Virus record (IMG/VR): IMGVR_UViG_3300046791_000684
Location: 1-28,410 of that record
DNA length: 28,410 nucleotides
Source of the DNA: a virus
Reading direction: 5' to 3' (one strand)
The translations under genes were made by a program, and so were the position numbers. Below the pieces are notes generated by a model. It was given only the letters and a program-made list of their open reading frames with translations, was not told the DNA's origin and did no database searches. Every line of letters begins with the position of its first letter. Within the stretch, counting starts at the first letter, position 1. Positions 2,127 through 28,410 of the stretch are shown piece after piece.

Positions 2127-2560
2127 CGGCCTGCGCCCCCTTCCGTGTGGCGCGCTCTCAGGAGCGGCTCCCGCGGTTCCCCTCAAGGAAGGCATGCTTC
2201 GACCTCCGGGCGGTCTTCGGGGACACCGAGTGCGTCTGCCGGATCTACCCCGCGCGCGGGTTCTACGTCGTGGGGGCTTGCGGCCACGCCCATGGCTGGG
2301 ATCTTGCCAGAGGGGACGCCGAAGCACAGGCGAAGAGGCTGAACGAGGGGGCGGAGGACCTGATCCCGGCGTTGCAGGGGCCGGTCGAGCGGGTCGGCGT
2401 TGCACCGCCCCCTCCATCCAAGGACGATGACGGTGCTGGCGACGGGGCTGCCCGGCATGGGCGTAAGAGCGTCGAGAGCGTCCCACCTAATCCCTATTCT
2501 CCAAGGACCTCCGACATTCCTCCCCGTCGTCTTCCCGTCGGGACCGCCCGCGAGGCATGA
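2123..2560 (+). CDS. Conserved-looking small hypothetical protein, Pro-rich tail
   Basis: GTG at 2123 overlaps the previous TGA as GTGA, and the TGA at 2558-2560 overlaps the ATG of the next gene, giving 145 residues. The first ~85 residues look folded: CFDLRAVFGDTECVCRIYPA then GFYVVGACGHAHGWD and a helix EAQAKRLNEGAEDLIPAL. It holds five cysteines and two histidines near one another, which could bind a metal, though no standard zinc-finger spacing is seen. The C-terminal ~55 residues are rich in Pro, Asp and Arg and probably disordered. I do not recognise the family. The precise overlaps at both ends are the main support for the start and for the gene being real. Confidence 0.55.
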   Translation: MTACAPFRVARSQERLPRFPSRKACFDLRAVFGDTECVCRIYPARGFYVVGACGHAHGWDLARGDAEAQAKRLNEGAEDLIPALQGPVERVGVAPPPPSKDDDGAGDGAARHGRKSVESVPPNPYSPRTSDIPPRRLPVGTAREA

Positions 2561-2889
2561 GCGAGCGGGCGATCCGGATCGTGAACGACCCGGCGGACCC
2601 CCTGGTCCTGAAGGTTGTGGATGCGGCCACCGGGGAGCCCCTGAAAGGCGTCTACCGGGTCACGCTGGAGCACACGATCGGCTACTTGCCCCGGGCGTGG
2701 ATCGAGTTCTTCGGAGTGGAGTCGAAGGTGGAGGCTCGGCTCGTGGCGAAGGAGGAGGGACTGGCCCGACGGTACCTCGAGCGCCTCGGCAAGATGGGGC
2801 ACCCGGACGCCGGACGGGATCCGGTGGGTGCCCTTGGCCAGGTGGCCGTGGACCTCCAGCAGGCTCTCACCCTCAAGGAGACCGCATGA
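2557..2889 (+). CDS. 110-residue hypothetical protein upstream of the ATPase
   Basis: A compact protein without membrane segments. Residues 1-60 look like a small beta-rich domain: AIRIVNDPADPLVLKVVDAA, a turn TGEPLKGV, then YRVTLEHTIGY, and a strand containing VESKVEARLV. The rest is helical (EGLARRYLERLGKMG and VGALGQVAVDLQQALTL). Its ATG overlaps the previous TGA (2557-2560) and its TGA overlaps the ATG of the ATPase gene (2886-2889), so translation of the three genes is probably coupled. Strict coupling to a HerA-like ATPase suggests the two proteins work together, for example as an adaptor or substrate-recognition partner, but this is inference. Family not recognised. Confidence 0.6.
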   Translation: MSERAIRIVNDPADPLVLKVVDAATGEPLKGVYRVTLEHTIGYLPRAWIEFFGVESKVEARLVAKEEGLARRYLERLGKMGHPDAGRDPVGALGQVAVDLQQALTLKETA

Positions 2890-4688
2890 CGGCCGGCCAG
2901 CCGATCCTCGGGAAGACCCTTGATGGGGCGGACGTCGCCATCGACCTGGACGTCCTGATCGTCTCCCGCCTCCTCGCCCAGGCGAACTCCGGAGGGGGGA
3001 AGAGCTTCCTCCTGCGCCGGATCCTGGAGCGCACCCACGGGCGCGTTCAGCAGCTGATCCTGGACATTGAGGGGGAGTTCCACACCCTCCGGGAGGAGTA
3101 CGACTACGTTCTGGCGGCCCCCCGCGGCGGGGACACCCTGGCGGACGTGCGCACGGCTCCCCTGCTCGCCCGCCGCCTCCTCGAGCTCGGGGTCTCGGCC
3201 ATCATCGACCTCTCCGAGATGAAGCACCACGAGCGCGTCCGCTTCGTGCGGCTCTTCCTCGAGGCCCTCATCGACGCCCCCCGCTCCCTCTGGCACCCCG
3301 TCCTGGTCGTGGTGGACGAGGCGCACCAGTTCTGCCCGGAGAAGGGGGAGGCCGAGTCCGCCGGCGCCGTCATCGACCTGATGACCCGTGGCCGGAAGCG
3401 GGGCTACTGCGGGGTGCTCGCCACCCAGCGCCTGTCGAAACTCGCCAAGGATGCCGCGGCCGAGGCGAACGTCAAGCTGATCGGCCGGGCCGCCCTCGAC
3501 GTGGACATGAAGCGGGCGGCCGAGGAGCTAGGGTTCACCCGCAAGGAGGACGTCGCCCGCCTGCGGGGGCTCCCGCCGGGGCGGTTCTTCGCCTTCGGGC
3601 CCGGGCTCTCCGACCAAGTGCTCGAGATCCAGGTGGGGGAGGTCCGCACGACCCACCCCAAGGCCGGTCAGCGGGAGGCTCCCGTCCCGCCGCCCCGCGC
3701 CAGGGTCCAGAAGGTGCTCGCCCAGCTGGCCGACCTCCCGAAGGAGGCTGCCGAGGAGGCTCGCACGGTGGGGGAGCTGCGCACCGAGGTCCTCCGGCTC
3801 CGGCGCGAGGTCGCCGCGAAGCCGGCGCCGGCCGCGCCGGAGGTCCAGCGCGTGGAGGTCCCCGTGCTCGGGAAGGATGTCCTCGCGGAGCTCGACCGAT
3901 GCGCCGCGAACCTCGGGAAGCAGGCGGCACACTTCGCGGAGGTCGCCGGGACGCTGGAGCGGGGCGCGGCCAGCCTCCAGGAGACGGCCGCGGCCGTGGA
4001 CCGCCTAGGGCGGGACCTGATGGGGGCCATCGCCAAGGCCGGGCGGAACGGCTCCCCGGCGCCGGGGGCACGGGCCACCACCGTCAAGGCCGCCGACGTC
4101 GGCCGGTTCGTGAGGACGGCTGCCCGCCCGGATGGCATGGTCAAGGGCCCCGGCGGACTTCGTCCCCCGACCGTGAACGAGGCTCGCGCCATGGACGGCG
4201 AGGCGTTGGGCGTCACGGGGCCCGAGCAGAAGATCCTGGACGCAGTGGCCTGGTTCCGGGGCGTGGGCATCGAGCAGCCGGAGCAGGCCGCCGTCGCCCT
4301 CCTCGCGGGCTATACGGTCGGCGGGAGCTCCTTCCGGAACGCTCGCGGCGCTCTCCACACCAAGGGTCTCATCCGCCTCGAGGGGGAGGGGATCCTCCTC
4401 ACGGAGGAGGGCGCGGACCTGGCGCACGAGCAGCCCGTTCCCCTCACCACCGAGGAACTCCATCGGAAGGTCCTCGGATGCCTGCCGGGGCCCGAGCAGC
4501 GCCTCCTCGAGGTCATCCTCCGGGCCTACCCTGAGGCCGCGCCGCAGGAGACGATCGCCGAGGAAACGGGCTACACGGTCGGCGGCAGCTCCTTCCGGAA
4601 CGCTCGCGGGCGCCTGCGGACCTTCGGGCTCATCGAGTTCGTGGGCGGAGCCCTGCGCGCCCGGCCGCTGCTATTCCTCGAGGCCTAG
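2886..4688 (+). CDS. HerA/FtsK-superfamily (DUF87-like) ATPase with duplicated winged-helix tail
   Basis: A 600-residue predicted DNA-pumping or remodelling ATPase. AAGGAG lies five bases before the ATG. Walker A is ANSGGGKS (residues 33-40) and Walker B is VLVVVDEAH (about 139-147); LATQR (178-182) fits the conserved glutamine after the sensor strand of HerA/VirB4-like enzymes. Residues about 260-400 are Pro/Ala-rich with two coiled-coil stretches (roughly 275-315 and 330-385). The C-terminus holds two similar winged-helix units (about 445-505 and 535-592), each with GYTVGGSSFRNARG. HerA-family proteins form hexameric rings that translocate DNA. The phage packaging motor is separately encoded by the terminase, so this enzyme probably acts in replication, recombination or anti-phage interference; I cannot tell which. 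No nuclease domain is seen in it, and its stop shares CTAG with the convergent gene. Confidence 0.8.
   Translation: MTAGQPILGKTLDGADVAIDLDVLIVSRLLAQANSGGGKSFLLRRILERTHGRVQQLILDIEGEFHTLREEYDYVLAAPRGGDTLADVRTAPLLARRLLELGVSAIIDLSEMKHHERVRFVRLFLEALIDAPRSLWHPVLVVVDEAHQFCPEKGEAESAGAVIDLMTRGRKRGYCGVLATQRLSKLAKDAAAEANVKLIGRAALDVDMKRAAEELGFTRKEDVARLRGLPPGRFFAFGPGLSDQVLEIQVGEVRTTHPKAGQREAPVPPPRARVQKVLAQLADLPKEAAEEARTVGELRTEVLRLRREVAAKPAPAAPEVQRVEVPVLGKDVLAELDRCAANLGKQAAHFAEVAGTLERGAASLQETAAAVDRLGRDLMGAIAKAGRNGSPAPGARATTVKAADVGRFVRTAARPDGMVKGPGGLRPPTVNEARAMDGEALGVTGPEQKILDAVAWFRGVGIEQPEQAAVALLAGYTVGGSSFRNARGALHTKGLIRLEGEGILLTEEGADLAHEQPVPLTTEELHRKVLGCLPGPEQRLLEVILRAYPEAAPQETIAEETGYTVGGSSFRNARGRLRTFGLIEFVGGALRARPLLFLEA
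4308..4634 (+). repeat. Internal gene duplication: two copies of a winged-helix segment
   Basis: Two segments beginning at 4308 and 4569, 261 bases apart, are nearly identical at DNA level over about 40 bases (both encode GYTVGGSSFRNARG followed by a similar L-T-GLI segment) and diverge on either side. Each sits in the recognition-helix area of one winged-helix unit of the ATPase. The DNA identity is higher than expected for ancient domain duplication, suggesting recent duplication, gene conversion or strong selection on the DNA-contact surface. Confidence 0.75.
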
Positions 4689-5943: not shown

Positions 5944-6294
5944 GAGCATCCTTCCCTCCCTCCCTGCGCGGCCTCCCATCGAGCGGGAAGAATGACCGCC
6001 GCGGGGGGCCAGTGTCAAGGAGGGACTTGCTTGAACCAGTCGGCACCATGGTACCGCCTCTTTAGACGCTTGGGCCGGATGGTCCCGTACCCATTTGTCC
6101 CAAGAGGGTTATGGCGGCATTCGATTCCGCCCTTCTTCGGGCTCCGGGGCGGAATGGGCCCGGGGCGGTTCGCGACCGGGCGGAGTCCGGGGCGGCGGCG
6201 GGGTCTTGGGCCCCACCCTTGCGCGAGCCTGGCCTCGGGGGAAAGGAGCTACCCCTCTTCCAGACGAGCGGCACCGCCCCGGCGGACGCGGATC
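5944..6294. other. Non-coding gap with inverted repeats upstream of the HicB-like gene
   Basis: No convincing gene was found in these 351 bases; the open frames crossing it are compositional shadows. It holds a minus-strand TTGACA (6013-6018), a GGTACC hexamer (6050-6055) similar to the palindromes in the 6651-6796 promoters, and two inverted repeats. One is ATTCCGCCC (6124-6132) / GGGCGGAAT (6147-6155), a perfect 9-base stem. The other is a wider CTTGGG/CCCAAG pair near 6069-6105. The 9-base stem lies downstream of the regulator gene ending at 6295 on the minus strand and could act in transcript termination, though no U-tract follows. Confidence 0.5.
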
Positions 6295-6630
6295 CTACTT
6301 CGCGGCCGGCGGCTTCGGCACCCCCTTCTCGAACTCCTTGCCCCACTTCGTGAAGTTCGAGTGGATGTACCGGCGGAGGGCGGCCTTCTTCACCGGCCCG
6401 ATCTCCGACGGCAGGTTGCGGCCCCCCTCCCACCGCTTCGCGCGGGGGTTCCAGCGGCCGGTCCAGGCGGTGACCCCCGTGCCCTTCGGGTGCATCCCGA
6501 GGGCCCGGGCGACGGTGGCGGCCGTGAGGCCGTAGCCCCCGGCCTCCTGGGGGAGCAGCAGCATGCGCAGGGACCGGACGAGGAAGATCTCGTCCTCCCG
6601 GACGTCCAGGTGGTCCTTCATGGCGTTCAT
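6295..6630 (-). CDS. Putative DNA-binding regulator with HTH-like segment
   Basis: A 111-residue basic protein. AAGGAGG lies just before ATG 6630 (a second ATG three codons on is an alternative). Residues about 33-60 (GYGLTAATVARALGMHPKGT followed by GVTAWTGRW) read as a helix-turn-helix with a long second helix, followed by a basic stretch (NPRAKRWEGGRNLP) and two helices to the end. No enzyme motif is seen. It is expressed from a promoter at 6651-6678 that is a close inverted copy of the divergent promoter at 6769-6796, and both carry GGTACC palindromes; this position is what one expects of an autoregulated repressor controlling both genes. The HTH reading is by eye and moderately confident; the regulatory role is inference. 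Confidence 0.6.
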   Translation of the reverse strand: MNAMKDHLDVREDEIFLVRSLRMLLLPQEAGGYGLTAATVARALGMHPKGTGVTAWTGRWNPRAKRWEGGRNLPSEIGPVKKAALRRYIHSNFTKWGKEFEKGVPKPPAAK

Positions 6631-6650
6631 GGCACCTCCTTGGTTGTATG

Positions 6651-6678
6651 AGTGTACCACGGTACCGGCAACCGTCAA
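6651..6678 (-). promoter_or_regulatory. Promoter for the regulator gene, with overlapping operator
   Basis: Read on the minus strand: TTGACG (6678-6673), 16 bases, TACACT (6656-6651), with transcription start expected near 6644, immediately before the ribosome binding site. The spacer contains CCGGTACCGTGG, an imperfect palindrome around GGTACC. The 28-base element matches the divergent promoter at 6769-6796 at 20 of 28 positions. Confidence 0.65.
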
Positions 6679-6768
6679 GGGGAAATCAACCTGTTCCGGA
6701 TGGCATGACAGAGTGATATAGGCCGGGTCTTCCCCTCCACTGCCCGCCGGATTTCTTCCTGATTTAGG

Positions 6769-6796
6769 TTGACGGTACCGTCTACCGTGCTAGACT
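6769..6796 (+). promoter_or_regulatory. Promoter for the 80-residue gene, with perfect 12-bp palindrome
   Basis: TTGACG (6769-6774), 16 bases, TAGACT (6791-6796). The -35 box overlaps GACGGTACCGTC (6771-6782), a perfect 12-base palindrome, followed by another half-site ACCGT (6784-6788). A repressor bound here would occlude RNA polymerase. Transcription is expected to start near 6803, leaving a leader of about 144 bases before the next gene. Confidence 0.7.
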
Positions 6797-6802
6797 GTTC
6801 TT

Positions 6803-6946
6803 AGTTGATTGACATCTGAAGAGCCGAGCGACGGGCCGGGTTGAAAGTCCCGGAGGTCGTTCGGTGCGACAGGGAGACAGGAATAGGCCGGGGACTTGGC
6901 CCCGGCCGCATGGCTCGGCAAAAGGCCGAGCGGAAAGGAGGCGCCC
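6803..6946 (+). ncRNA. Structured mRNA leader with mutually exclusive stems, candidate riboregulator
   Basis: The leader between the predicted start and ATG 6947 contains three stems. Stem 1 is CCGAGCGAC (6824-6832) with GTCGTTCGG (6856-6864), nine pairs including one G-U, enclosing CCGGG/CCCGG (6836-6840, 6849-6853). Stem 2 is GGCCGGGG/CCCCGGCC (6886-6893, 6900-6907). Stem 3 is GCTCGGC/GCCGAGC (6913-6919, 6925-6931), ending directly before the ribosome binding site GGAAAGGAGG. The sequence GCCGAGC also occurs at 6823-6829, inside stem 1, so 6913-6919 can pair with either copy. One state keeps stem 1 and stem 3, the other replaces both by a long-range helix. This is the logic of a riboswitch or attenuator. 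No known family was recognised, and it could also be a stable small RNA. Confidence 0.5.
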
Positions 6947-7189
6947 ATGAGCGCCGATAAGGCCCGCAACCTCGCGGTCTACCTCGCGTGGTTGGCTCTC
7001 GCGAAGGCGAGGCAGGGTCGGTACGGACGGTCTTGGGCGTACGTTCGCAAGATGAGGGTGCCGATCGCGGAGATGAAGGACATGACCGCGACGGCCCTTC
7101 TGAGGGAGGTGGAGTACACCTTCCACACGAAGGACGACCGGAGGAAGAGCCCGGCTCTGGCGGCTCTGGCCGCGTACCTCGTCGGCTAG
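6947..7189 (+). CDS. 80-residue protein of unknown function (moron-like transcription unit)
   Basis: Start ATG 6947 follows a strong ribosome binding site (AAAGGAGG, five bases away). The product is basic and mostly helical: ARNLAVYLAWLALAKARQGR is an amphipathic helix, then YGRSWAYVRKMRVP, a helix around MTATALLREVEYTF, a charged linker KDDRRK, and a last Ala/Leu-rich helix. There are no cysteines, membrane segments or recognisable motifs. The gene has its own promoter, structured leader and double terminator, and runs opposite to both neighbours; such autonomous units in phages are often morons, or lie in immunity regions as cro-like genes. Partner and function are unknown. It is the only gene on the plus strand between 4688 and the right edge. 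Confidence 0.7.
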   Translation: MSADKARNLAVYLAWLALAKARQGRYGRSWAYVRKMRVPIAEMKDMTATALLREVEYTFHTKDDRRKSPALAALAAYLVG

Positions 7190-7196
7190 GTGAAAG

Positions 7197-7220
7197 GGGG
7201 AGGCCCGCAAGGGCCTCCCC
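7197..7220 (+). terminator. Hairpin directly after the 80-residue gene
   Basis: GGGGAGGCCC-GCAA-GGGCCTCCCC is a perfect 10-base stem with a GNRA-type tetraloop, starting seven bases after the stop codon. No U-tract follows, so it may stabilise the transcript end rather than terminate alone. Confidence 0.6.
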
Positions 7221-7241
7221 TGACCTCCCTGTCGCGGTTCG

Positions 7242-7271
7242 AGGGCCCCGGGGTGTTCCCCGGGGCCCTTT
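7242..7271. terminator. Strong hairpin between convergent transcription units
   Basis: AGGGCCCCGGGG (7242-7253), loop TGTT, CCCCGGGGCCCT (7258-7269), followed by TTC on the plus strand: a perfect 12-base GC stem with a short T run. It lies between the plus-strand gene ending at 7189 and the end of the late operon at 7294, so it probably serves transcripts from both sides. Confidence 0.7.
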
Positions 7272-7293
7272 CGATTCCCCCCGTCCGACGGCC

Positions 7294-7509
7294 TCAGCCT
7301 CCCGTCACGACGGCCTCGACCTCCCGGCCGCACCGTAGGCACCGGAGCAGGATCCGCCCCCAGACGCTGTCCCAGACCTGCCGGTGGGCCTCGGGCCGGG
7401 CACATCGGAAGCACTGGCGCGTGACCATGAGGGGGGCGATGAGGTTCTGGTCGCCGGGGAGGGGGAGCGCGGCCTCGGCCAACCGCCGGAGGCTCTCGAC
7501 GGGCTCCAT
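7294..7509 (-). CDS. Small zinc-ribbon protein
   Basis: A 71-residue protein with two CxxC knuckles: CFRC at residues 33-36 and CLRC at 57-60, separated by 20 residues, a standard zinc-ribbon layout. A short helical N-terminus (VESLRRLAEAAL) precedes it. The last gene of the long minus-strand operon, its ATG lies three bases after the previous stop. Zinc ribbons of this size in phages bind nucleic acid or support protein folding; target unknown. Confidence 0.65.
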   Translation of the reverse strand: MEPVESLRRLAEAALPLPGDQNLIAPLMVTRQCFRCARPEAHRQVWDSVWGRILLRCLRCGREVEAVVTGG

Positions 7510-7512
7510 GGG

Positions 7513-7683
7513 TCAGCCGGCGACGGGCGGCGCGGCTTCCGGCCAGGCGTGGACCGAGGAGGCGAGGACCGCCTGCGGGGGCCCCTCCGTTCCGGCCGGG
7601 GACTTGAGGGCGAGGACCACGGTCCCCCCGGCGTCGGTGACCACCGACGCCTCGACCAGGACCGTCTCCCCCCGCGCGAACAC
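7513..7683 (-). CDS. 56-residue beta-rich hypothetical protein
   Basis: Begins with GTG at 7683, two bases after the stop of the lipoprotein-like gene, and ends three bases before the next ATG. The sequence FARGETVLVEASVVTDAGG followed by a TVVLALKSP strand alternates polar and hydrophobic residues as in a small immunoglobulin-like or fibre-associated beta domain; the tail is Pro/Ala-rich. Support comes from its tight fit between neighbours and its protein-like composition; without that it would be discounted as noise. No ribosome binding site is obvious, so coupling to the upstream gene is likely. Confidence 0.5.
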   Translation of the reverse strand: MFARGETVLVEASVVTDAGGTVVLALKSPAGTEGPPQAVLASSVHAWPEAAPPVAG

Positions 7684-7685
7684 GG

Positions 7686-8360
7686 CTACTTCGGCGGCTC
7701 GGCCGGTGGCCCCGGGGAGGGCTTCGGGGGCTCTGCCCCGCGGCCGCCGCCGCCGAGGCTGATGGGGAGCCCCGCGCCCCCCGTCAGGGGCACGGTCGCC
7801 TGAGGGGAGACCGTGTTCGTCGGAGTGGCGGTCGCCCCCTGCGAGGACGGGGTCGTGGTCCCGGAGCCGGAATTCGTGATGAGGACGGAGACCGTGGGCG
7901 GGAGCAGTTTCCCGTCCGGCCCGATCGCCCCGGGGACCCCGATGATCGTCGTCTGGACGATGACGTCCCGGAGCCTCCCGTCGCCGGCCGCCGGAGCGGT
8001 CGCCGAGCCCGCCAGGCCCGACGCGCAGCCCGACAGGCCGAGGCCGAGGGCCCCGGCGAGGAGGAGGGCGGAGGCCGCGGAGGAGGGGGGCAGCGGCTTC
8101 TCGCCGCCCGCGGTCAGGTTCGCGCCGGGGCGGCCCTTCCAGAGATCCACCACCTTGTGGATGCCGCGGATGACCGTGTAGACCGCGGCCAGGGACGCGA
8201 GGATCCACGCCTTCGTCTCGTCCTTGATGGGCAGGTGGGCGACGATCGTCCCGACGGCGGCGCTCCCGGCGAACTCGGAGCTGGTCACGCCCGCGGACGG
8301 GCCGACGACGGCGTTCCAGAGCCCTCCCACGAGCCCGTTCTGCGGCATCTTGACGTCCAT
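7686..8360 (-). CDS. Membrane segment plus embedded lipobox: holin-like/lipoprotein composite
   Basis: A 224-residue protein with AGGAGG before ATG 8360. Residues 1-75 resemble a small phage membrane or holin-like domain with a hydrophobic helix at about 50-67 (TKAWILASLAAVYTVIRGI) followed by a positive segment. A second hydrophobic segment (SSAASALLLAGALGLGLSGC) at 93-112 ends in a lipobox LSGC with Cys112. The rest is Gly/Ser/Thr/Pro-rich, finishing in PPKPSPGPPAEPPK, like the Pro-rich Rz1-type outer spanins. A lipobox normally sits within the first 30 residues; here it is internal. Possibilities are a genuine two-segment protein processed at Cys112, an internal start producing a separate lipoprotein (GTG codons at 8153 and 8150 lack a good ribosome binding site), or a fusion of two lysis genes. 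Confidence 0.6.
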   Translation of the reverse strand: MDVKMPQNGLVGGLWNAVVGPSAGVTSSEFAGSAAVGTIVAHLPIKDETKAWILASLAAVYTVIRGIHKVVDLWKGRPGANLTAGGEKPLPPSSAASALLLAGALGLGLSGCASGLAGSATAPAAGDGRLRDVIVQTTIIGVPGAIGPDGKLLPPTVSVLITNSGSGTTTPSSQGATATPTNTVSPQATVPLTGGAGLPISLGGGGRGAEPPKPSPGPPAEPPK

Positions 8361-8848: not shown

Positions 8849-9607
8849 CTACGTCACCGCGTAGGCGGCCCCGGGGGACTCGCCCATGTCCTGCCACTCC
8901 GTCGCGGAGATCTTCTGAATGACGACGGAGTCCCCGATGACGTTGCTCTGGATGAAGCCGGCGGCCGCGGAGACGTTCGCCCCGCGGCGGATGGTCTCCC
9001 CCGCGTCGGCCACGGCCCGGAGGTTCTGGGCGGCGACGACGTGCATCCGGAACCAGAAGCCGACGGGGAGCCCGGTCAGGGTGTACTTCACGAGCCCCGC
9101 GGCGCCACGGTTCGTGAGCATCCGGCCGCAGTCCGAGGGGACGGCGACCCGGTCGGCCGTGATGTCCAGGACCCGGGCCACGCGGTTGGCGCGACTGCGG
9201 AAGTTCTCCTGCCAGTTGTTCCCGTCCCGCACGAACTCGATGAACTCGCTCCTGCTGTCCAGGACGAAGTCCACGCCGTCGGCCATGAGGAAGAGGCCGG
9301 CGCCGCCGGCGTTGTGCTTGATGGTCACGACGTGGGCGGGGTCGAACGCCCGGATCCGGAGCGGGCGGCCCTCGGGGTGGTTCGTCTGGAGGGCGTTGGC
9401 GAGGTTGTCGGTGGCCGCGCCCCCCTCGGTATCCACCGTGCACATGGCCACGGTGGGGGTGATGGTGTCCGCCGCCAGGACCAGGTTCTCCTCGTCGGCC
9501 CCACCGAGCATCTCCCGGACGAAGGAACGGAGACCCTCGACCCAGGTCTTGCGGGCGCCCTGGTTGATGGCATTGGCGTAGCCGTTCTGGGCGGGGAGGC
9601 TGCTCAT
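8849..9607 (-). CDS. Phage structural/fibre-like protein
   Basis: A 252-residue protein without membrane segments. Residues about 85-140 contain RIRAFDPAHVVTIKHNAGG, then LFLMADGVDFVLD and FVRDGNNWQENFRS. This fits a repeated beta-strand arrangement seen in phage fibre or appendage proteins, where a ladder of short strands ends in a tryptophan-containing strand. The C-terminus (VIGDSVVIQKISATEWQDMG) looks like another such unit. It lies after the glycine-rich fibre and the CxxC protein, so a tail appendage or virion-decoration role is likely. One copy of the repeated start-associated motif lies 12 bases before its ATG, and no conventional ribosome binding site is visible. The family assignment is by resemblance only. 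Confidence 0.6.
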   Translation of the reverse strand: MSSLPAQNGYANAINQGARKTWVEGLRSFVREMLGGADEENLVLAADTITPTVAMCTVDTEGGAATDNLANALQTNHPEGRPLRIRAFDPAHVVTIKHNAGGAGLFLMADGVDFVLDSRSEFIEFVRDGNNWQENFRSRANRVARVLDITADRVAVPSDCGRMLTNRGAAGLVKYTLTGLPVGFWFRMHVVAAQNLRAVADAGETIRRGANVSAAAGFIQSNVIGDSVVIQKISATEWQDMGESPGAAYAVT

Positions 9608-9619
9608 GGGCCCCGAAGA

Positions 9620-9633
9620 TGGCCCCCCGCTTC
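9620..9633 (-). repeat. Start-associated motif, copy A
   Basis: Minus-strand GAAGCGGGGGGCCA, 12 bases before the ATG of the fibre-like gene at 9607. No Shine-Dalgarno sequence is present between motif and ATG. Confidence 0.6.
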
Positions 9634-9661
9634 CGCGCGGCAGGGAGGGGGGCGCGGCCGG

Positions 9662-26964: not shown

Positions 26965-28410
26965 TCAGAAGATGCGCGGCTTGCGGGTCTCGTAGGAGCT
27001 TCGCTGGACCGGGACCATGTTCAGGAGGCGGTTTAGGGCGATGATGGAGGCGATCACGCCGTCGATGCGCTTGTGGGGTTTGGCCTTGTGGACGAAGATG
27101 TTCTCCTTCTTGTCCTCCTTGGCGACCGCGTTCAGGGCGTTCCATCGGAGGCAGGGGTTCCCGTCGTGCTGGAGGCGGCCGCCGAGAAGGAGGGCCTTCA
27201 GGAGCTTGGCTGGATCGCTCATGGCCACAACGGTCTGCTGGACCTCGGTGACCACGAGCCCCGTGCTCTGGAGGGCCGAGACGAACCACCCTGCGTTGGC
27301 CGGGTCGAACCCGATCTCCTGGATGGGGCTGCCGGCGTCCTTGAAGGCCGGGAGGATCTCCCCGGTCAGCTCCTCGAAGATGGTCGGGTAGTCCGTCATG
27401 TTCCCCTCGGTCGCGCGCACGAAGTTCCGCCGGACCCAGTCGGAGTATTCGACCTTGTCGTCCTGCTCGTGCTTGCGCATCGGCTCCTTCGGGATCCAGA
27501 ACCAGACGTGGAGGTCCACCGAGAAGTCCATGACCACTTCGCGGATGTGCTCTCTCTTCTCCGCGTCGAGGTGCTTCAGGGTGAGGAGCCCCCCGCGCCC
27601 CTCGAGGGGGCGGCGAACCGCGGCGACGAAGGCGCAGAGGTCCCACTTCGCCGCGAGGTCGAGCCCGGCGGCCACTTGGCACCCCTTCGGGATGACGAGG
27701 GGGACCCTCTTCGCCTTGCAGTCGTCCCATGTGTTGAGCGCGATCCATGAGGTCGCCTGCTGGGCCCAGATGTTCAGATGGAGCTGGAGGAGGCTGTTCA
27801 GGCGGGAGGGGTCCTCCTGGGCGAGCATCACCTCGCGCGCCAGGTAGTCCGGCTTCACCGTGATGCCATAGGAGGGGTTCGCCTTCTTCCAGGTCGAGGC
27901 CTTGGTCCAGTCGGCCTTGGCGTCGGCGGCGAAGATCACCGGCAGGTAGTTCTCGTCCTTGGAGGTCCCCTTGATGACGTCCTGCGCGTGGTCGTACTCC
28001 TTGTAGCAGATCGAGGAGACGTCGTCCCCGGCGGTGGTGATGAAGATGGTGATGGGCTGGCGGCGCGCGGCGACCCCCTTCGTGAGGGTGTTGTAGAGCT
28101 TGTCGTCGGGCTGCTCGTGGAGCTCGTCGAAGAGGATGGCCTGGAGGTTGGGGCCGTGCTTCCCCTTCGCCTCGGCCGAGATCGCGCGGAGGCTCGCGGT
28201 GGTGGAGGGGATGAAGATCTTCGGCCCCACGGCCCGGAGCACCGAGCGCCCGGCCAGGTGCTCGTTCTTCTCCGTCATCGTCCAGCAGTAGTTGAAGAGG
28301 TACCGGGCCTGCTCCTTCTCGGCCGCGGCGACGAGGACCTGGGCTCCGGGCTCCTTCTCTCCGTCCAGGTGGGTGATGGCCAGCCCAAGGCCGGCGACCA
28401 GGACCGTCTT
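26965..28410 (-). CDS. terL: Terminase large subunit (5' part cut by the window edge)
   Basis: The visible 481 residues begin with KTVLVAGLGLAIT, in which the first Lys-Thr pair is probably the end of Walker A, so the N-terminus lies beyond the right edge. Walker B is LQAILFDELHEQPD and the coupling motif TIFITTAGDD follows. The C-terminal nuclease half includes AAGLDLAAKWDLCAFVAAVR with an Asp of the RuvC-like site, EIGFDPANAGWFVSAL with the second, and RIDGVIASIIALNRLL with the last conserved Asp. This pattern is typical of Terminase_1/COG4626-type enzymes, found in phages with HK97-like heads. The enzyme packages DNA through the portal. The small subunit is not in the window. Confidence 0.9.
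   Translation of the reverse strand, partial: KTVLVAGLGLAITHLDGEKEPGAQVLVAAAEKEQARYLFNYCWTMTEKNEHLAGRSVLRAVGPKIFIPSTTASLRAISAEAKGKHGPNLQAILFDELHEQPDDKLYNTLTKGVAARRQPITIFITTAGDDVSSICYKEYDHAQDVIKGTSKDENYLPVIFAADAKADWTKASTWKKANPSYGITVKPDYLAREVMLAQEDPSRLNSLLQLHLNIWAQQATSWIALNTWDDCKAKRVPLVIPKGCQVAAGLDLAAKWDLCAFVAAVRRPLEGRGGLLTLKHLDAEKREHIREVVMDFSVDLHVWFWIPKEPMRKHEQDDKVEYSDWVRRNFVRATEGNMTDYPTIFEELTGEILPAFKDAGSPIQEIGFDPANAGWFVSALQSTGLVVTEVQQTVVAMSDPAKLLKALLLGGRLQHDGNPCLRWNALNAVAKEDKKENIFVHKAKPHKRIDGVIASIIALNRLLNMVPVQRSSYETRKPRIF

Follow-up and report, generated by a model that had tools for sequence, protein, structure and literature searches.

A structured leader RNA beside a probable immunity-type promoter pair in an uncultured, GC-rich phage

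Can the leader RNA of a small phage gene alternate between two mutually exclusive folds? The question is raised by a 7-base motif, GCCGAGC, which occurs twice (6823-6829 and 6925-6931) in the predicted leader of an 80-residue gene and has its complement, GCTCGGC, between the two copies (6913-6919). All three segments are exact, and from them one can indeed draw two pairings that exclude each other. The first-pass annotation took this arrangement for the architecture of a riboswitch, an attenuator or a leader responsive to a trans-acting RNA. We find that switching is unsupported for the complete RNA, and that a small possibility of it is left during transcription.

The gene, its promoters and its surroundings

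The window, by which we mean the whole stretch of DNA analyzed, is an IMG/VR record of 28,410 bases (IMGVR_UViG_3300046791_000684) from an uncultured, GC-rich virus (69% GC). Its minus strand carries a late operon of the siphophage type, with genes for a terminase (26965-28278) and a portal protein (25524-26939), and also for a head protease, a major head protein and tail proteins. The 80-codon gene stands alone on the plus strand and runs convergently into the end of this operon, and its leader separates it from a divergent promoter pair. Elsewhere in the window, a HerA-like ATPase encoded at 2400-4688 has matches to HerA models in both NCBIfam and PADLOC, at scores under the curated cut-offs. 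Relatives of this ATPase (66 on IMG/VR contigs, plus one on a contig of a Planctomycetota metagenome-assembled genome) give a hint of the host range of the phage group. A perfect 15-nt inverted repeat at 9413-9659, with arms about 220 nt apart, is longer than any other found in the window for that range of distances.

The 80-residue protein (P0001; plus strand, 6947-7189, 243 bp, ATG at 6947) has a GC content of 0.59, 0.48 and 0.89 at the three codon positions. This periodicity, a strong Shine-Dalgarno sequence and a single-sequence structure model with four helices (pLDDT 76) suggest that the gene is real. They include the two features, codon-position GC and a good Shine-Dalgarno sequence, that argue for a coding gene and against one large non-coding RNA spanning 6803-7275, a possibility we considered and rejected. 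The best leads on the protein, both of about the same length and both below threshold, are phrog_2008 (E 0.006) and DUF7202 (E 0.05). As a separate observation, the fold of the coding sequence is more stable than those of its synonymous-codon permutations (z -2.3 to -2.6), the strongest such effect in a test of 15 short genes. For the transcript as a whole (6803-7275) z reaches -10, to which the two hairpins at its end contribute. It had been proposed that the gene is followed by terminators. Folding does show two strong, terminator-like hairpins on the plus strand after it (7196-7221 and 7242-7269); the T-tracts that would complete them are weak or absent, which is why the terminator scanner missed both.

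A promoter of its own was also claimed for this gene, and a sigma70-like site was found where one is needed (plus strand, 6769-6796; TTGACG-16-TAGACT, with TG before the -10), placing the predicted start near 6803. A near mirror image of it, TTGACG-16-TACACT, occupies 6651-6678 on the minus strand, and the 28-nt arms of the two sites are 75% complementary. Scanning 6000-8200 returned these 2 sites against 0.0 expected in shuffles, and the pair makes up two of the three promoter-like sites in the entire window. Both promoters share an operator-like 17-nt repeat, ACGGTACCG(G/T)C(A/T)ACCGT, between the -35 and the -10. The copy in the spacer of the plus-strand promoter, ACGGTACCGTCTACCGT (6772-6788), contains the inverted repeat ACGGT-N7-ACCGT; the copy in the divergent promoter, ACGGTACCGGCAACCGT (6659-6675), is a direct repeat of the first and 88% identical to it.

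The natural reading of these repeats is that a single regulator would act on both divergent promoters. Expression of the 80-residue gene would then probably be controlled at the DNA level, by a phage repressor at the promoter, and the promoters with their shared repeat form a probable control region of the phage immunity type. Divergent promoters under repressor control are typical of the phage lambda immunity type. The resemblance here lies in divergent sigma70-like promoters with an operator-like repeat in each spacer; unlike in lambda, the repressor is putative, and neither P0001 nor the product of the divergent gene, P0002, matches a known regulator family. P0002 (minus strand, 6295-6631, Shine-Dalgarno AGGAGG) is a candidate regulator for which we found no family match and obtained a poor structure model. 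Among 294 planctomycete genomes its matches are weak; several fall on C-terminal repeats of an apparent bacterial topoisomerase I, at E of about 3e-4 to 1e-3 per genome.

Folding of the complete leader

The predicted 5′ leader comprises 144 bases of the plus strand (6803-6946), its start being inferred from the promoter position and its end set by the ATG. Three local hairpins spanning 109 nt are present in both its minimum-energy and its centroid fold. The first (H1, 6823-6865, -27 kcal/mol) has an outer stem, 6823-6832 with 6856-6865, and an inner one, 6836-6840 with 6849-6853. The 9-pair stem described earlier (6824-6832 with 6856-6864) is exact, and an additional G-U pair, 6823-6865, extends it to 10 pairs. 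After a gap of 20 nt comes H2 (6886-6907), with 8 GC pairs, a 6-nt loop and -18 kcal/mol, and with no T-tract following it. The third hairpin (H3, 6913-6931; 7 pairs, 5-nt loop, -12.7 kcal/mol) is the pairing of GCTCGGC with the downstream GCCGAGC, and ends 3 nt before the Shine-Dalgarno sequence AAGGAGG (6935-6941). In the full leader the pairs of H1 and H3 have probabilities of at least 0.999, with a pairing probability of 0.9997 for H3.

The competing helix, 6823-6829 with 6913-6919, is predicted to form with a probability of 7e-8. If the native stems are forbidden, the best remaining fold is worse by 9.5-10.9 kcal/mol in RNAs that end at 6946-6950 and by 13.1 kcal/mol in one that ends at 6960, a gap whose robustness is shown across temperature only. 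Two folds of comparable stability are thus absent from leaders ending at or after 6946, and are predicted only transiently, before about position 6925. The folding check of the leader region that had been proposed as a test of the switch consequently went against it: the full-length leader is predicted to be monostable, with the rival fold clearly worse.

Nor do the two states differ in a way that translation could read. When each was forced, the Shine-Dalgarno sequence was largely unpaired in both, with a mean unpaired probability of 0.66-0.80 in the native and 0.58-0.74 in the rival state. Its last GG pairs in a small hairpin (6940-6944 with 6951-6955) that holds the AUG in its loop in either state. 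With the RNA cut at 6950, the AUG is about half open in the native and open in the rival state; with the first codons included, it is equally open in both. No T-tract follows any leader hairpin, and neither fold makes a terminator. Since access to the Shine-Dalgarno sequence and the AUG is about equal and no terminator is formed, the rival state has no visible output, and the alternative fold would leave access to the ribosome binding site unchanged. The leader thus shares with translational riboswitches and attenuators the mutually exclusive helices that can be drawn beside a ribosome binding site, and differs from them in being monostable and in having neither an output domain nor an Rfam match. 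The earlier statement that it fits no known riboswitch consensus holds, there being 0 Rfam matches at the gathering threshold in the window; the best one below it is M23 RNA, at 22.2 bits against a gathering threshold of 41.2.

How unusual such a leader is depends on the comparison. Its folding energy of -66 to -68 kcal/mol is lower than that of shuffled sequences (z -3.4 with 200 shuffles, -2.8 with 40), and it ranks in roughly the top 3% when 710 windows of its length from both strands of the contig are compared, so that it is not unique. The densest cluster of extreme-fold windows in the contig (6801, 6881, 6961 and 7041) is nevertheless the leader with its surrounding transcript. The leader lies in a non-coding stretch, the upstream half of which is richer in AT. 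As for the motif itself, a triple of 7-mer, complement and 7-mer within 144 nt has P = 0.003 in a 144-nt leader of the same composition. The contig as a whole has about 15 such sites, and its shuffled versions have 2-15; the observed number is within the shuffle range, and the leader triple is therefore not exceptional and by itself no evidence.

A side observation concerns the unpaired leader stretch GCGACAGGGAG (6866-6876), which is an 11-nt perfect complement to 7225-7235, a segment of the 3′ UTR flanked by the terminal hairpins of the gene. Through this complementarity the transcript could close on itself. The pairing has a P of about 0.06 in shuffles of the region, and the contig holds 22 complementary 11-nt pairs of this kind against about 10 in shuffles.

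A rival fold in short transcripts

The picture changes for transcripts that end before the downstream GCCGAGC is made. In those ending at 6920-6924, the native fold is more stable by 2.3 kcal/mol than a long-range hairpin spanning 6823-6919, and in an RNA starting at 6820 the two are equal in energy (gap 0). Controls with permuted stem pairs had a gap of 15.9 ± 5.0 kcal/mol, and in 0.4% of them it was as small as the real one; with part of the sequence fixed, the share was 1.3-2.2%. Orientation controls that left base runs intact gave a gap as small in 5 of 256 cases, the real one counted. The low-gap variants among these include some with the outer stem of H1 reversed. Because that reversal keeps the gap small, the effect comes mainly from cross-pairing between the inner part of H1 and H2 (GGGCCGGG with CCCCGGCC, and GUCCC with GGGAC) and less from the 7-mers that first drew attention. 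This nearly isoenergetic fold of short transcripts is the sole positive evidence for a switch; it is modest and came to light after the region had been chosen. We infer, moreover, that H1 and H2 are already folded once 6913-6919 emerges.

Relatives and the function of the leader

Within the data searched, and within the reach of single-sequence queries and covariance models, which are weak detectors, this leader is an orphan. IMG/VR yielded no relatives with P0001, P0002 or the portal protein as queries, and no homologue of the leader with three patterns. BLAST searches of annotated phages with the leader region and the proteins, and of plasmids with the leader alone, returned noise only. The exact 18-mer of the H1 loop had no matches. 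Seeds of 15 bases from the leader hit 79 loci, 0 of which have the leader fold, and the best seed family is antisense to a gene annotated only by its open reading frame. P0001 met only noise-level matches in the 294 planctomycete genomes. None of the loci found with the HerA-like ATPase profile (66 viral and the one planctomycete contig) has the leader, P0001 or P0002, whole records having been searched for 50 of them. Weak covariance matches (L020 and L060) were discarded, as they overlap unrelated coding regions. Two further identities were rejected: a piece of a group II intron, for which GUGCGAC and a domain-V-like hairpin are present but in the wrong order and with no Rfam match, and the RNA of a type III toxin-antitoxin system, for which repeats are absent and the protein is too small.

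We lean, by a narrow preference, toward an ordinary structured 5′ UTR of a small, operator-controlled phage gene, with control exerted at the promoter. Transcription would start near the predicted position 6803. The promoter used and that of P0002 have the operator-like repeat in common, and a repressor acting on both would set on/off control at the DNA level. The nascent RNA would fold into the local hairpins H1, H2 and H3, which would persist with the Shine-Dalgarno sequence mostly unpaired, and would plausibly protect the 5′ end from decay. GCTCGGC would pair locally with the downstream GCCGAGC, its upstream match being incidental and derived from similar GC-rich hairpins. Small phage genes with a structured 5′ UTR form a general class, and the stable hairpins between a promoter and a Shine-Dalgarno sequence that stays open agree with it; the orphan sequence of this leader does not. 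Against a plain UTR stand a leader longer and more structured than such a UTR needs, and the unusually small energy gap to the rival fold in transcripts that stop at 6920-6924. It appears unlikely that these hairpins are by-products that simply follow from the very high GC content of the genome and have no function. A comparably unusual fold is seen in about 2-3% of all 144-nt windows of the contig, most of them coding, the motif triple is at chance level and evidence of conservation is absent, all of which suits by-products; the concentration of extreme windows in and around this leader, in a non-coding stretch, does not.

Binding of a protein or of polymerase, either as a put-like RNA acting on the elongation complex shortly past an early phage promoter or as the site of a phage RNA-binding protein, seems rather improbable. 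The put RNA of HK022 works by antitermination, for which it depends on the zinc-binding domain of the beta-prime subunit of RNA polymerase. The analogy is with putL of this phage, a two-stem-loop RNA of about 70 nt encoded immediately after PL (PMC9378689), and the leader resembles it in lying directly 3′ of a regulated phage promoter and in its two larger stem-loops. It differs in having three hairpins over a longer span, the larger two 20 nt apart instead of adjacent, and in showing no similarity in sequence and no Rfam match. Downstream there is a single-gene unit of 243 bp and then strong hairpins, so that there is nothing long to read through. We are more doubtful still of a conformational switch in which a ligand, a protein or a trans-acting RNA would stabilize 6823-6919, displace H1-H3 and alter translation of P0001. 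The small gap before 6925 is transcribed speaks for it, as does an outer H1 stem that contains G-U pairs where the competitor pairs perfectly. It has to contend with the monostability of the full-length leader, with H1 and H2 forming earlier and needing to be unfolded, with the missing output, with an effect that survives reversal of the outer H1 stem, and with homologues of which none were found. Very improbable, finally, is a co-transcriptional version, in which a pause near 6920-6924 would give 6823-6919 time to form, and its persistence would depend on a factor of the phage or the host, which would thereby set expression of the operator-controlled 80-residue early protein.

As it stands, this orphan structured leader of an uncultured phage has little importance. 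It illustrates that in a genome of 69% GC, complementary 7-mers arise around ribosome binding sites often enough to mimic switches with which the energies disagree. Should the phage make use of the transient rival fold, the leader would represent a type of phage regulator absent from Rfam, and the gene it controls would be one that adjoins a probable lysis-lysogeny promoter pair.
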